Origin: Bacteroidota bacterium
GTDB lineage: Bacteria; Bacteroidota; Bacteroidia; Flavobacteriales; Flavobacteriaceae
Reading direction: 5' to 3'
NCBI GenBank assembly: GCA_027619415.1
Contig: JAQCFO010000005.1
Span: 1-64,000, forward strand
Length of the DNA stretch: 64,000 bases
A program made the position numbers and the translations under genes. Positions within the stretch are counted from its first letter, which is position 1; each line of letters begins with the position of its first letter. The notes under the pieces are model-generated. The model made no database searches. It saw nothing but the letters and a program-made list of their open reading frames with translations, and was not told the origin of the DNA. Positions 57,859-64,000 of this stretch are shown piece after piece.

Positions 57859-58698
57859 TTACCTATTCCACATGTCTTGTTCAAAGTCACGAATTTCTTT
57901 TTTAATTCTTTGAGACTCAATAATAGATTCTAGACCAGGTTTTTTATATTCTTTAATAGCCCTGTCTCCGTATAGATTATCAACTTTATATATATATGAG
58001 CTAAAACGCCTAGTAGATAGAAGCTGATCAAAAGATATTCTATTAGCATTATTTTTATCATTAAAGACTAGTTCTTTATGTAAAATCTCTCTAATACTAG
58101 GGTACCAAATCCAAAATAAATCTGTATTATTTTTACCATTATCATCTTTAATATTTTTACCAATTGGCATAATTCCCAGTAGCCTATAGCGCATTTCACC
58201 ATGTCTCTTATCAAAGTACCACATGCCTTTAATTCTATATCCACTTATATCAATTGACTCAAGAACTTCTGGCTCAGTTATCACTCCATTGATTTTTTCA
58301 GAAAAAGAAACAACTTCCATAACATCCTTGTAAGTCATAGGGTCTTTAAAATTATCATTTCTATTAAAGTAAAGCTTATTAATGTTTTTATTAATAATAT
58401 TTTCTTTCAACACTCTCCATAATGATTTACGATTATTTTTATAAGTTTCATCGTTAACAGGATACAATAAAGGAAAATTTATTCTTTCGTTTAAATCAAT
58501 TTTTTCATAAACAACTCTAGACCAAAGAATATCTCTGTCGTCAATAAAATCATATTCAAAAAACGAATCCTGATTAGACTGAACCTGATCAAAATTCTGA
58601 ATTCCTATTTCTTCTGGCGTATTAGCATTTAAAATATTAGACTGGCCACGCGAGTCTGTAATTAAAATAACACTTAAAAAGATTATTAGTTTTTTCAT
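57859..58698 (-). CDS. gldN: Gliding motility / type IX secretion protein GldN
   Basis: A 279-residue exported protein (signal peptide about 1-18). GldN forms the periplasmic ring with the lipoprotein GldK near the outer membrane in the type IX secretion system. Typical stretches are DRDILWSRVVYEKIDLNERIN, KRHGEMRYRLLGIMP and FWIWYPSIREIL. It is somewhat shorter than Flavobacterium johnsoniae GldN (about 326, from memory). It overlaps gldM by 4 bases. Confidence 0.94.
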   Translation of the reverse strand: MKKLIIFLSVILITDSRGQSNILNANTPEEIGIQNFDQVQSNQDSFFEYDFIDDRDILWSRVVYEKIDLNERINFPLLYPVNDETYKNNRKSLWRVLKENIINKNINKLYFNRNDNFKDPMTYKDVMEVVSFSEKINGVITEPEVLESIDISGYRIKGMWYFDKRHGEMRYRLLGIMPIGKNIKDDNGKNNTDLFWIWYPSIREILHKELVFNDKNNANRISFDQLLSTRRFSSYIYKVDNLYGDRAIKEYKKPGLESIIESQRIKKEIRDFEQDMWNR

Positions 58699-60377
58699 TC
58701 TAAAATTAAAATAAAGTTTTTAACAAGATAATTTGGGTTTATAAAATCTCCATCCTTAGCATTAGCTTTTATATTAGATATTCTGATAACGGTTCCCTTA
58801 CCCTGAGTCTTAATATCCGCCTCGGCTTGTTTATTGAACCTAGGTGAATTTCCAATAACTTTTTTAGATGGTGAATTCCCTACTTTAATATCAAATGAAG
58901 TAACATTAATAGTGAAATTATATAAAAAATCTACTGGCTTATTTCCGGTAATCATTCCATTTGAAAGGTGTCTCTTAGAAATGTTTTCAGTAGGTTTATA
59001 AAATCTCTCATTAACCTTAATAGAGCCTTCAGCGGGTGGAGGCTCTAATATTCTAAACTCACCGCCATCAAATTTCCTTTCAATTCCATTTAACTCACCT
59101 ATAACACTAATTTTCATAGTTGTTATTTTAGAGTTTGTAGATGGTATTGCGCTCCATCCTTCTTTAACTTTTAAAAATTTCCCATTACTACTAAATGGTT
59201 TAATTGAATTAGCTGCTACCCCAGGAATAGAAATAGAAGTTGGGTTTCTTAATCCTCTATAAAATACCTTCATGTTTTCAGCTGAAACTACAGCAGAATT
59301 TGGTTCGCTAATAACTAGAATTTTTTGATCAACTGGAATTGATTTAAGCTCTTGTGTATTAACATCTTTTTTAGAGATAGTCCCAGTTAGTTTGTAATTA
59401 CCAGGAATTGTCAATCTTTTTTTAAGAATAACTTTACCACTTTCAATAAAGAACTCATCGTTGCTTAAAGGTATACCATTAATAAATAATTTCACTTCAT
59501 CTGGAGTGTAACCCTCGTCTTTCTTTCCCATTACAATTGCCGCATCAATCACATCACCAGTATAGTACACTGACTTAGTTGTCTCCAGTAAAGTCTGAAA
59601 AGTATCAAGACTAATACCCTTATCCTTAATAGCTTGTAAAATTTCATTAAGAACTTTGTTCTCAATATATCTTATATCACTTTGAATTTTAGTAAATTTT
59701 GCAATAGATGCTATTACTGGAAATCCTTTGAAATTATATTCTAAATATGGCTGCTTAATACCTTGACTGTTTATCACAAAATCCTGGTATTTGAACCTAT
59801 TTTTTAAATCCTTTTTAACAGATTCAAAATTAAATAATATTTTATTTTCTTTTTCACTACTATTTTCTAAAAATGTAATAGAATCCAAAATATTATTAAA
59901 AGTAGATGAGTAATTTTTATAATTAGAAATAAACAATTGACCATTTTCGTTTATTAAATCACGATCAAAAAAATAGTCATCTAGAGTTTGTGATTTATCC
60001 ATTTTTTGATAATCCACAAACGAAATAACAGTGTCTTCACCTTTTACATTAACCTCTTTAATGTATTTATTCTCATCACCATTAATTAAAGAATCTTTTA
60101 TTGCTTGAAGGAAATTATAATAATCATTAGATAATTTTTGAATTTTAACTAAATTGTTCGCAGCAATTTTATAATCTAAACTTTCTTTGTTAGAATTAAT
60201 TTGAGAATAACTTGATTTTGAAGAGTTTTCTAATTCAACAATTGAAGATTCTAAATCATTATCCAGAATTCCAATTGTTGCTAGCACCTCTTTATCAATT
60301 TGAAGAGCAAGCATAGCAATAAACACGAGGTACATCATGTTTATCATTTTCTGTCTTGTATCTAGTTTTGCTGACAT
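58695..60377 (-). CDS. gldM: Gliding motility / type IX secretion protein GldM
   Basis: A 560-residue protein with one N-terminal membrane helix (about 12-30, MYLVFIAMLALQ) and a long periplasmic part. GldM and GldL form the proton-driven motor; GldM spans the periplasm to reach the GldK/GldN ring. The family start KLDTRQKMINMMYLVFIAML is conserved, and GVAANSI and RFYKPTENISK stretches fit later domains. It is a little longer than the F. johnsoniae protein. It lies between gldL (6-base gap) and gldN (4-base overlap). Confidence 0.95.
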   Translation of the reverse strand: MSAKLDTRQKMINMMYLVFIAMLALQIDKEVLATIGILDNDLESSIVELENSSKSSYSQINSNKESLDYKIAANNLVKIQKLSNDYYNFLQAIKDSLINGDENKYIKEVNVKGEDTVISFVDYQKMDKSQTLDDYFFDRDLINENGQLFISNYKNYSSTFNNILDSITFLENSSEKENKILFNFESVKKDLKNRFKYQDFVINSQGIKQPYLEYNFKGFPVIASIAKFTKIQSDIRYIENKVLNEILQAIKDKGISLDTFQTLLETTKSVYYTGDVIDAAIVMGKKDEGYTPDEVKLFINGIPLSNDEFFIESGKVILKKRLTIPGNYKLTGTISKKDVNTQELKSIPVDQKILVISEPNSAVVSAENMKVFYRGLRNPTSISIPGVAANSIKPFSSNGKFLKVKEGWSAIPSTNSKITTMKISVIGELNGIERKFDGGEFRILEPPPAEGSIKVNERFYKPTENISKRHLSNGMITGNKPVDFLYNFTINVTSFDIKVGNSPSKKVIGNSPRFNKQAEADIKTQGKGTVIRISNIKANAKDGDFINPNYLVKNFILILE

Positions 60378-60383
60378 AATTTA

Positions 60384-60830
60384 TTAATCATTCATAGCAT
60401 TAAGTAAGCCTGTATATTTCTTATTAAGTTGAGCTACTTTATTTTTCATTTCTAATAATTCTTCATTTAAACCTTCTGGAACATGAATTGTACTAATAGA
60501 ATTACTTGCTTTGCTTAATTCTTCATTTAAAGTCGAAAGTTTTTTAACAGTACTATCTAAGGATTTTGTAAGGTCATAAGTTTCAACATCATCTTGCTTT
60601 TCAAATTCACCAGAATCAATTGTAAAGTATCCTTTTAAACCAGCAATAGCAAAAATAATTGCTTCAGAAATAAGTCCTACTGTTAGCATAAAATTACCTG
60701 TAATAGGTCCAAAATCAGCATAAGTTATTTTAAGTAATGCACCTAATATCACAATAGATGCACCCATGCCGAACATAAGTTCAATTAGATTATCTGAAAT
60801 AAAAAATTTCTTTTGTTTAATTGGTTTCAT
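60384..60830 (-). CDS. gldL: Gliding motility / type IX secretion protein GldL
   Basis: A 148-residue inner-membrane motor protein. It has two membrane helices, about 20-37 (FGMGASIVILGALLKI) and 47-66 (FMLTVGLISEAIIFAIAGL), and a C-terminal coiled-coil. Glu56 in the second helix corresponds to the Glu that, in studied GldL, is needed for proton-driven motion. The F. johnsoniae protein is about 215 residues; this one has a shorter coiled tail. It sits between gldK and gldM with gaps of about 5 bases. Confidence 0.94.
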   Translation of the reverse strand: MKPIKQKKFFISDNLIELMFGMGASIVILGALLKITYADFGPITGNFMLTVGLISEAIIFAIAGLKGYFTIDSGEFEKQDDVETYDLTKSLDSTVKKLSTLNEELSKASNSISTIHVPEGLNEELLEMKNKVAQLNKKYTGLLNAMND

Positions 60831-60835
60831 AACGT

Positions 60836-62329
60836 TTATTTGTTTTTAATTTTTTTAGAATTTTGATTCAAGCCAATATCTTCACCCAAATAATCTTGAA
60901 CAGTTCTAAACCCTATATAAGATCTTTTTTCATCTTTATATTCATAATCCCTAGAACTTACTCTTAAAAAGTAAGCAACATCTTTCCATGATCCTCCTCT
61001 TATTACTTTTCTTAAGTTAGTAGAATCTGAAATTTTAGGATTCAATCCAGAAGCAATATCATAAGAGCCCTTATCGTATGAAGATTCAGTCCATTCCGAT
61101 ACGTTTCCAGACATGTTGTAAAGACCAAAATCATTTGGCCAATAAGAATTAGCTTCAACTGTATATAACGCATTGTCTGAAGCATAATTCCCTCTGTTTG
61201 GTTTAAAATTTGCTAAAAAGTATCCTTTAGAATCTGTAGTATAAGGACCACCCCAAGGGTAAGTTGCAGATTCAATTCCTCCTCTTGCAGCATACTCCCA
61301 CTCAGCTTCACTAGGTAATCGAAATGAAGGTACTCCTTGAACTGATTTTTTAACCTTTGAAACAGTCAAGCCTCTAAACCATCTTAAATAAACATTTTCA
61401 CCATTCTTTCTTTGCCATTGATTTTTATACATTGTTCTCCAATGAGCAAAAGCTTTAGCCTGTTCCCATGAAACTCCAACCACAGGATAATCTGTATATG
61501 CATCATGCCAGAAATAATTATTATGCATCGGCTCGTTATAGCTGTATGAAAAATCTTTTATCCACACAGTCGTATCTGGGTAAATTGCAATAGATTTTTC
61601 TTTAAAAAATAATTTTCTAGATTCACTTTTAGATTTAATAGCAGCTTGAGCATCAAACGAGGTATAATTATATATTATTTTTTTTGTGTTAAAGGTTCTT
61701 TCTCCATTATAAGATTCTTCTTTTGGCAAAAAGAAACCAGTACCTTCCTCAAATTCCCCTTCCATAACTTGAGCATAAGCTAAATCTGGATAATTGTCTC
61801 TCTCCCAAATTAAATCATTATCATAATTTAAAACATAGGTTTTTTTATCAGAAAAATCAATTCCTATAAAATTATTTTCTTTATAAAGCTCATAACCTCC
61901 TTTTTCTTCATCTACAATATCTTCTACAACTTCATAAATTGGAAAAAATTTATTAATACTATTTTCTTTATCTAAATCCTCTTGAGAAGGTGTTTCACCT
62001 AAATCAAAAATAGCTCTTTCAGCAAGGGCGACTCTTACAACAGAATCTCTAACCCAGTTAACAAACTGTCTATATTCTCCATTTGTTATTTCAGTTTCAT
62101 CCATATAAAATGCCTTAATTGAAACTGTACTTACTGGAGCATTTTGTAAGTGAGCCATGTCATCATCAGACATACCCATTAAGTATGAACCACTTGGAAT
62201 CAAAGACATCCCTGGGGGTTTATTTGGGGAAAAATTTTTAGCCTTTGTACCAGTAAGCTCTCCTCTATCAGGTTTAAAACAGGATGTTATTAAGATAGAA
62301 ATAACAAAAAATAATAATATTTTCTTCAC
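60836..62329 (-). CDS. gldK: Gliding motility / type IX secretion lipoprotein GldK
   Basis: A 497-residue lipoprotein (LITSC, lipid on Cys17) in the outer-membrane ring of the type IX secretion system with GldN. The FGE-sulfatase fold is visible: SLIPSGSYLMGMSDDD near the start, FYMDETEITNGEYRQFVNW, FRLPSEAEWEYAARGG and the end RKVIRGGSWKDVAYFLRVSS. The Cys that makes sulfatase-activating enzymes catalytic is not expected here; the role is structural. It opens the gldKLMN run; the arginase-like gene lies 89 bases upstream. Confidence 0.95.
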   Translation of the reverse strand: MKKILLFFVISILITSCFKPDRGELTGTKAKNFSPNKPPGMSLIPSGSYLMGMSDDDMAHLQNAPVSTVSIKAFYMDETEITNGEYRQFVNWVRDSVVRVALAERAIFDLGETPSQEDLDKENSINKFFPIYEVVEDIVDEEKGGYELYKENNFIGIDFSDKKTYVLNYDNDLIWERDNYPDLAYAQVMEGEFEEGTGFFLPKEESYNGERTFNTKKIIYNYTSFDAQAAIKSKSESRKLFFKEKSIAIYPDTTVWIKDFSYSYNEPMHNNYFWHDAYTDYPVVGVSWEQAKAFAHWRTMYKNQWQRKNGENVYLRWFRGLTVSKVKKSVQGVPSFRLPSEAEWEYAARGGIESATYPWGGPYTTDSKGYFLANFKPNRGNYASDNALYTVEANSYWPNDFGLYNMSGNVSEWTESSYDKGSYDIASGLNPKISDSTNLRKVIRGGSWKDVAYFLRVSSRDYEYKDEKRSYIGFRTVQDYLGEDIGLNQNSKKIKNK

Positions 62330-62418: not shown

Positions 62419-63558
62419 TTATATAAAGTTTCTTTTTAAACTTAACAATAACTTATTTGAAATATCTCCATTACAAGCATTCAAATAATCATCATAATTA
62501 CATGGAATTAACGCTATATCATTAATTTTATTGCTTTCATTTAATAATTCAAACCACCACTTTTGACTTAAATCACTATGATAAAATTTTAATTGCTGAT
62601 TATTGAGGTCAACATGATAAAATTTTCCTTTAAAATTTTCAGATTTTGGATCCTCCATAATCCTTAAGCTAAACCCATCAATGAAACACCACATAGCTTG
62701 AGATAATAATGCGCTTGATATATCATTTTTAAAAACCTCAAAAACACCTACACTAGAGATTCTGCTACTGATTCCAGCATACCTAAAAATTGAACATATC
62801 TGATTAGCTTCAAAACCATTGGGATAATTATGTGCAAAATTCAATTCAGAAGATTTAATAGCTCTGAAATCAATTGACAAGATATCAGTAAATCTCAAGC
62901 AAGGCTCAACTAAATCTATCTTTTGATTTAATTCTCCCAACCTATAAGATTCAAAATGAAATTTTTCTAGTAAATCCAGCTCTTCTTGAGAATTTAAAAA
63001 TGTTTGAAAACCTATATTACAATAATGACTAAGCTTATTTTTTTCATCCATTATTATTTTAGACATATAAGATGATGAATCAAAATCATCTGTAATCTGC
63101 CCAAAATCAAATTTATTATCAATTGATGTTAAATTTACATACTCCTCTCTAAAGGCATAAGACTGATATACTGGGAATGTAATGTCCTGAGAACCTCCGA
63201 TAAAAAATGATAATATATTTTTATTTTTAAGAACTTCATTTATAGATCTAACAGCATAATAGGTGTCAAATTTACTTTCTCCATTAATCACATCACCTAA
63301 ATCGATGATATTTATTTTCCAATCTCCTAAATACAAGGAATAAAATTCCTTTCTGAAGGAGTTAACTTCTAAATATTCGTTATTGTTCTCTTTGGATATG
63401 ATTGTTTCCTTCAAACCAATAATAGCGATATCTACTTCGTTTAAATTTAAATTCTTGGAACTGTAAAAAGAAATGTTTTTTCCAATACTTAACTGAGGTA
63501 ATTCATTCTTGAAATTAACTATTTCCTTATTAACTGGTAATAAATACTCAGTTATCAT
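62419..63558 (-). CDS. Arginase/formimidoylglutamase-fold protein with degraded metal site
   Basis: A 379-residue protein of the ureohydrolase (arginase, agmatinase, HutG) fold. The canonical motifs are altered: GGDH reads GGSQD (121-125, His lost), DAHxD reads DNKFD (147-151, His lost) and the SxDxD region reads SIDFR (228-232, second Asp lost). Three of six metal ligands are thus missing, so classical two-manganese hydrolysis is unlikely. It lies between topA (4-base overlap) and gldK (89-base gap), a place I recall for such a gene in flavobacteria. It may be a structural or binding protein. Function unknown. Confidence 0.8.
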   Translation of the reverse strand: MITEYLLPVNKEIVNFKNELPQLSIGKNISFYSSKNLNLNEVDIAIIGLKETIISKENNNEYLEVNSFRKEFYSLYLGDWKINIIDLGDVINGESKFDTYYAVRSINEVLKNKNILSFFIGGSQDITFPVYQSYAFREEYVNLTSIDNKFDFGQITDDFDSSSYMSKIIMDEKNKLSHYCNIGFQTFLNSQEELDLLEKFHFESYRLGELNQKIDLVEPCLRFTDILSIDFRAIKSSELNFAHNYPNGFEANQICSIFRYAGISSRISSVGVFEVFKNDISSALLSQAMWCFIDGFSLRIMEDPKSENFKGKFYHVDLNNQQLKFYHSDLSQKWWFELLNESNKINDIALIPCNYDDYLNACNGDISNKLLLSLKRNFI

Positions 63559-64000
63559 TTCTGTTTTTTAGGTTTAGAAGACGTTTTCTTTGTTTTCTTT
63601 TTTTGAAATAAAGCTTTAACATCATCAATAGTATACTTATCTACATCTGTTCCTTTAGGAAGTTCGACTTTAACTTTACCTTTAATCACATTAAATCTCC
63701 CCCATCTAGCTTTTTCAATTCTAATCCCTTCATCATCCCATGATCTTAAGAGTTTCTCCACTTCTTTTTTCTTTTTAGCTTCAATTAAATTGGCACAATC
63801 TTCATGGCTTAAATTATCAAAATCATAATTTTTATTAATATTAATAAATAATCCATTCCATTTTATAAAAGGACCAAATCTACCTTTACCCTTAGCCACG
63901 TCAAAACCATCATAATTACTTATTGGAGCATCAGCTTTTCTTTTTTCTAAAATTAACTCAATTGCTTTGTCTAATGAAATTTCTAAAGGACTTAATCCTT
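63555..64000 (-). CDS. topA: DNA topoisomerase I, C-terminal end
   Basis: The frame is open from the window edge to the stop at 63555, so only about the last 148 residues are seen. They contain topoisomerase C-terminal repeat motifs: a GLSPLEISLDKAIELI stretch, then GKGRFGPFIKWNG and ARWGRFNVIKGKVKVELPKG, ending in a Lys-rich tail. The N-terminal catalytic domain lies outside. An ATG at 63899 inside this frame is internal, since the repeat continues upstream of it. It overlaps the arginase-like gene by 4 bases. Confidence 0.9.
   Translation of the reverse strand, partial: GLSPLEISLDKAIELILEKRKADAPISNYDGFDVAKGKGRFGPFIKWNGLFININKNYDFDNLSHEDCANLIEAKKKKEVEKLLRSWDDEGIRIEKARWGRFNVIKGKVKVELPKGTDVDKYTIDDVKALFQKKKTKKTSSKPKKQK

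Follow-up and report, generated by a model that had tools for sequence, protein, structure and literature searches.

The window, that is, the whole stretch of 64,000 nucleotides that was analysed, carries on its minus strand the gene order topA (C-terminal part), X, gldK, gldL, gldM, gldN (Table 1), in which X encodes a protein of predicted arginase fold with an altered metal site. This raises two questions: what a protein of this kind does if it is not a classical ureohydrolase, and whether its position beside T9SS genes reflects a part in secretion or gliding, which the initial annotation had thought possible. The description of X as standing at the head of the gldKLMN genes is correct in that it precedes gldK, yet it is loose, given that the start of X overlaps the stop of topA (TGA and ATG merge as ATGA) while 89 bp lie between X and gldK. 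Within the same cluster GldL is short, at 148 aa against a median of 216 aa for 108 GldL frames elsewhere, some of them cut at contig ends, and a comparison by eye with the frame of a relative (L133) shows that the section in the middle of the protein, following the membrane helices, is absent.

Table 1. Position in the window of the gene for X, of the motifs of its product and of the neighbouring genes.
Feature	Position	Strand	Basis
X, predicted arginase-fold protein, 379 aa, ATG start	62419..63558 (stop codon included)	minus	Open reading frame; Pfam PF00491, 24.6 bits; model and fold match
GGSQ motif of X, residues 121-124 (arginase H101 position is Q124)	63187..63198	minus	Alignment with enzyme-like ureohydrolases
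DNKFD motif of X, residues 147-151 (D124 and D128 retained; H126 replaced by K149)	63106..63120	minus	Alignment; column conservation
DFR motif of X, residues 230-232 (D232 retained; D234 replaced by R232)	62863..62871	minus	Alignment; column conservation
C-terminal extension of X, residues 301-379	62422..62658	minus	Outside the shared fold; W334 and C353 columns gapped in enzymes
topA, C-terminal part, runs off the window	63555..63998	minus	Open reading frame and profile match
gldK, GTG start, 89 bp after X	60836..62329	minus	TIGR03525, 530.2 bits
gldL, short (148 aa)	60384..60830	minus	TIGR03513, 59.9 bits, below the cut-off of 68.3
gldM	58695..60377	minus	TIGR03517, 235 bits
gldN	57859..58698	minus	TIGR03523, 225.8 bits

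The score of X against the Pfam Arginase family (PF00491), 24.6 bits, exceeds the gathering cut-off of 22 through a partial match that covers residues 78-212 only. Against the NCBIfam HutG family (TIGR01227) X reaches 28.3 bits, far under the cut-off of 229.15, and by score is not a member of this family; three relatives of X score 46.9 (L051), 60.8 (L099) and 102.5 (L213) against the same cut-off. Solved structures searched with the sequence of X alone gave two weak xylanase matches only, and with profile A1 they gave 3m1r as the best match (E 2.4e-14) and 16 others at E 0.01. The AlphaFold2 model of X, built from an input alignment (A2) of the window protein and 78 relatives that omits L134, which is cut, and L180, for which no start was found, has a pLDDT of 87.1 and a pTM of 0.90. 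The top Foldseek match of this model is the B. subtilis formimidoylglutamase (E 3.3e-14), and VIA-align superposes it on the T. cruzi enzyme 2a0m with a Z of 32.1 and an rmsd of 2.4 over 274 aligned residues, approximately residues 14-304; other fold matches are 4mxr (Z 32) and 3m1r (Z 30.1). On this model X has the ureohydrolase fold, as had been claimed from its motifs. A chance or artefactual origin of the match is ruled out because the model matches solved ureohydrolases at a Z of 32.1 and the reading frame recurs in many genomes. No signal peptide is apparent by eye at the N-terminus, and X is probably cytosolic.

Ligand positions are numbered here as in rat arginase I, in which the A metal is held by H101, D124, D128 and D232 and the B metal by D124, H126, D232 and D234. 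PMC6213053 gives the six manganese ligands of arginase as H101, D124, H126, D128, D232 and D234. Alignment with enzyme-like ureohydrolases places Q124, D147, K149, D151, D230 and R232 of X at these positions, that is, D124, D128 and D232 are retained and H101, H126 and D234 are replaced by Q, K and R, which agrees with the three replacements out of six read from the window alone. The comparison was extended to 251 aligned proteins, from which 16 enzyme-like rows were put aside to leave 235; among these are the copy from the window itself (L003) and a few near-duplicates, such as L133 and L134, which are the contigs of L005 and L016; 231 are distinct. The 16 enzyme-like rows carry HDHDDD in 11 cases, N for H101 in four and N for D128 in one. 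All six normal ligands occur together in none of the 235 X rows, an outcome of the motif alignment across homologues that favours the initial annotation. Nor do H126 and D234 occur together in any of these rows, in other words the two-Mn ligand set of HutG is absent; H126 is seen without D234 in 4 rows and D234 without H126 in 9. When the 379 columns are ranked by conservation, D124 and D232 stand at 27 and 28, and H126 and D234 at 294 and 247.

The change at H101 is not diagnostic of a dead enzyme, because the T. cruzi formiminoglutamase, which has been solved with Mn bound, carries the motif GGGND with N at this position (the entry title reads 'N114H variant'). Judging by the aligned sequences it is the B-site changes, at H126 and D234, that are the telling ones, unlike the change at H101. 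As a mark of a non-classical site, the motif changes pointed out earlier consequently hold for H126 and D234, while GGDH to GGSQ means little by itself. In family group f5 (L047, L048, L107-L110 and L112) D124, D128 and D232 are also lost in seven of seven loci and the protein is retained; topA adjoins X in two of these seven by the distance rule of the script.

Residues outside the metal site set X apart from the enzymes. E218, R222, G248, W290 and W334 are identical in all 235 X rows, of which E218, R222 and W290 are found in 0 of the 16 enzyme-like rows and G248 in 16, and the columns of W334 and C353, both in the C-terminal extension, are gaps in all 16. R69 is present in 233 of 235 X rows and 14 of 16 enzyme-like rows, and Q185 in 234 of 235 and 12 of 16. 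In a quick tree of 48 chosen X rows and 15 enzyme-like rows, which does not resolve the nearest enzyme group, the X rows form one clade (SH-aLRT 100) apart from the enzyme-like rows. The single clade, the altered metal site and the invariant residues uphold the view of X as a conserved, non-classical protein, and the invariant residues rule out that it is a pseudogene. Residue 53 of the window protein is Ile, a departure of this lineage from its family at a highly conserved position that is Arg in almost all the relatives aligned.

The extra C-terminal part of X, approximately 80 residues (301-379), lies outside the shared ureohydrolase fold. It was not seen outside the class: when 390 genomes of the phylum were searched with profile A1, the matches in the 12 out-of-class genomes with a 1e-30 match all ended by position 320 of 387, and the proteins found there are enzyme-like ones that lack the extension. 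Folded alone, this part has a pLDDT of 73.5 and a pTM of 0.62, and Foldseek gave no match for it at E 0.001 or better, which does not in itself establish that the fold is novel.

Profile A1 finds a match (E 0.001) in 367 of 395 genomes of the class, a count that includes five matches weaker than 1e-30 (G219, G504, G533, G535, G733), which are perhaps not X, and family group f106 (12 genomes, approximately 1e-44 to 1e-60), counted on its profile scores, a range in which out-of-class enzyme-like proteins reach 8e-48. By single-sequence search X is unmatched in 6 of 34 near-complete relatives. The X clade extends through much of the class, beyond the flavobacteria for which its position had been noted. 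X is a widespread protein that adjoins well-studied T9SS motor genes and whose nearest named family, formimidoylglutamase, is a name that its residues do not support.

The reading preferred here, with a probability of roughly 0.55, is that X is a repurposed ureohydrolase-fold protein that lacks the B-metal residues and has a general, probably ligand-binding role in the cytosol. X would descend from a formimidoylglutamase-like ureohydrolase; early in the class it would have lost the second metal site (H126, D234) and gained the C-terminal extension, and it would since then have been held under strong constraint. Binuclear hydrolysis of guanidino or formimino substrates would no longer be carried out, and the old pocket may bind a small ligand through Arg69, Gln185 and the Asp triad together with the Q/H/N residue, perhaps with one metal, the C-terminal extension serving as a cap or a partner surface. 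The E277 position holds E in no more than 126 of 235 rows, so that a ligand unlike the old substrate is conceivable. The role may be regulatory or metabolic, and would be general rather than secretion-specific, in which case the porP-gldKLMN neighbourhood would represent an inherited gene order. Against this, the pocket residues are perhaps structural, as the f5 loci (7/7) that lack the Asp triad retain X, and X is not universal among near-complete relatives. Moreover, inheritance alone does not easily account for a linkage to porP-gldKLMN as wide as that seen in 34 of 49 family groups.

Given the asymmetry between the two metal sites, X may have become a mononuclear metalloenzyme that uses the A site (Q/H/N101, D124, D128, D232) to hold one Mn, Mg or Zn for a new hydrolysis. 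The pattern of H, Q or N followed by three Asp ([HQN]-D-D-D) is kept at the four A-site positions in 211 of 235 rows, in 207 of the 231 distinct rows and in 105 of 123 rows at <70% identity, the two B-only positions vary freely, and Arg69 and Gln185 are common to most enzyme relatives. Nevertheless, this is unlikely: N replaces D128 in 10 of 235 rows, none of the 7 f5 loci retains the Asp triad, K or R at position 126 (164/235) may occupy the place of the metal, and Gln, which stands at position 101 in 179 of 235 rows (35 have H and 15 have N), binds metals weakly.

The same weighing applies to the proposal that X serves the T9SS or gliding motor as a cytosolic accessory, for example of GldL, that this explains its place with porP-gldKLMN, and that where the T9SS is lost X survives only fortuitously or because it has another role besides. 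The gene neighbourhood speaks for it. The fixed place between topA and gldK, which had been noted for other flavobacteria, is confirmed: by the distance rule of the script, topA immediately precedes X and gldK immediately follows it in 77 of the 80 named loci of Flavobacteriaceae; of the other three, contig ends truncate L134 and L180, and in L197 the topA overlap falls beyond that rule. In 39 further loci of the class, picked from the high-scoring matches listed and with L247 left out from here on, the usual order is topA-X-porP-gldK-gldL-gldM-gldN, and gldK is absent from the fetched stretch in 8 of the 39, some of them at contig ends. In 4 of 4 scanned loci PorP/SprF (TIGR03519) is encoded between X and gldK. 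When family groups are scored by their commonest state (f93 being split 1 to 1), topA and GldK are both near X in 34 of 49, neither is near in 7, topA is accompanied by a contig end in 4, and GldK only or topA only is near in 2 each. The link with gldK is conserved in most family groups of the class, and such a conserved porP-gldKLMN neighbourhood is what a T9SS component would show. Two groups, f110 (L226) and f20 (L085), have X by gldK with topA not found alongside. However, X is unlinked in the examined loci of f17, f18, f19, f22, f23 and f104. Where it is unlinked in f17, a thioredoxin-like gene is next to it in three of six loci and rmuC in two of six, and no common partner gene was found across the scanned f17 and f18 loci. 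In f18 (13 loci), where X is likewise unlinked, 6 of the 10 loci scanned (L086, L093, L099, L101, L102, L106) have a gene for an S13 D-Ala-D-Ala carboxypeptidase next to X.

The spacing of the genes bears on the same point. The median gap between topA and X is 0 bp in 14 loci of the genus, 3 bp in the 77 named loci and 31 bp in 33 loci of the class, whereas that between X and gldK is 194.5 bp (14 genus loci) and 133.5 bp (77 named loci), with gldK starts guessed, and that between X and porP is 144 bp (31 loci). X is thus tied more closely to topA than to the secretion genes, because its gaps to topA are far shorter. The motif TAnnTTTG, which is taken here to be the consensus of the -7-like promoter element, occurs in 35 of 89 X-gldK gaps, some of which include gldK codons, against 15.6 expected and at most 25 in shuffles. 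The full two-part promoter element occurs in 5 of 89 gaps against 1.8 expected, and shuffles give up to 7. These counts give a hint of a separate promoter between X and gldK, and only a hint because that of the full element falls within the shuffle range.

Simple co-occurrence counts are uninformative, because X and GldK are both near-universal (GldK is over cut-off in 367 of 395 genomes of the class, and the X profile likewise matches 367 of 395). Individual losses are more telling. In f17 (121 genomes) GldM is present in 116 and X in 120, and among its near-complete genomes X is found in 111 of 111 and GldM in 108 of 111. The three near-complete genomes without GldM, G415, G799 and G884 (99% complete), all retain X; as one genus code covers both G415 and G884, they perhaps represent two losses. 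In G415 GldN is missing as well and no GldK is over cut-off; for G799 and G884 the result concerns GldM. Of the two drafts of f17 without GldM, G857 (87%) retains X and G853 (83%) is without it. Outside these, G502 (95% complete) has X and is without GldM, GldN, SprA and GldK over cut-off. SprA is uninformative for f17, having no match in G061, which has GldM. In drafts the absence of T9SS genes can be due to assembly gaps, as in G714 (91%), where X and SprA are present and GldM, GldN and GldK over cut-off are not. Conversely, GldN is over cut-off and X is unmatched in 14 near-complete genomes (G450, G621, G771, G403, G720, G738, G246, G305, G427, G779, G644, G755, G466, G562), five of which (G427, G738, G755, G771, G779) are X-less by elimination, as 20 of the 28 non-matching genomes were listed. 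In favour of a T9SS accessory, five genomes without T9SS genes (G286, G294, G407, G472, G685; two of them are genomes of 0.5 and 1.2 Mb) are also without X. Loss of the T9SS is thus accompanied by loss of X in these five and not in the three f17 genomes or in G502, and X and T9SS genes can each persist without the other. The dedicated T9SS or motility role suggested in the initial annotation is not supported, given the retention of X in G415, G799, G884 and G502 and its absence from 14 genomes with GldN, and an accessory role of the kind set out above is accordingly held to be improbable. A search of the full-text literature, in which most subscription journals are not covered, found no paper that ties X to the T9SS or gld genes; the lone match for gldK with arginase was a paper on a duck pathogen, in which the words are incidental.

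A further reading combines the metal site with the neighbourhood. Histone deacetylases, kin of the arginase fold, retain one metal site of the two, namely the B site (D124, H126, D234); in X it is the A-site residues that remain. This raises the possibility, rather doubtful at present, that X binds a single metal at the A site alone and represents a third metal solution for the arginase-deacetylase fold, a mirror of the deacetylases, capped by the class-specific C-terminal part. It would then be a core enzyme or sensor in the cytosol of this class and would couple topoisomerase expression to the adjoining envelope machinery.

The window's genome encodes a true HutG (L002; 277.7 bits against the cut-off of 229.15) and an agmatinase (218.4 bits against 174.3) elsewhere, so X is not needed for either reaction. 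These two enzymes could serve as partners if X were instead the catalytically dead subunit of such a true ureohydrolase, for which the beta subunit of metformin hydrolase is a precedent (MefH beta; PMC11399263). This is very improbable given that 7 of the 28 near-complete relatives with X (G016, G037, G043, G046, G050, G052, G058) have no PF00491 match besides X, which rules it out as an obligate subunit of another ureohydrolase unless the drafts miss a partner.

If X is a repurposed ureohydrolase-fold protein, as preferred here, it is a further variant of the degenerate ureohydrolases that are already known. The Trypanosoma brucei arginase-like protein is a eukaryotic single protein that in the wild type is not known to hold the metals. 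It shares the ureohydrolase fold with X (4rhm, the entry title of which describes a quadruple mutant introducing D, H, D, D) and differs in that other residues are replaced. MefH beta likewise combines this fold with a degenerate metal site; according to PMC11399263 four of its six ligands are lost and neither subunit is active alone. MefH beta works with an active alpha subunit, whereas X occurs in near-complete genomes without another match to the family. HutG (TIGR01227; 3m1r, 4mxr) provides the best fold and profile matches of X and has R69 and Q185 in common with it, but X lacks H126 and D234, carries the C-terminal extension and scores 28.3 bits where 229.15 are needed. The out-of-class relatives L116 and L118-L126 are formimidoylglutamase-like, with a motif of the DxDxxxxSDAP type, and four of them (L121, L122, L123, L126) have GGxND instead of GGxHD.
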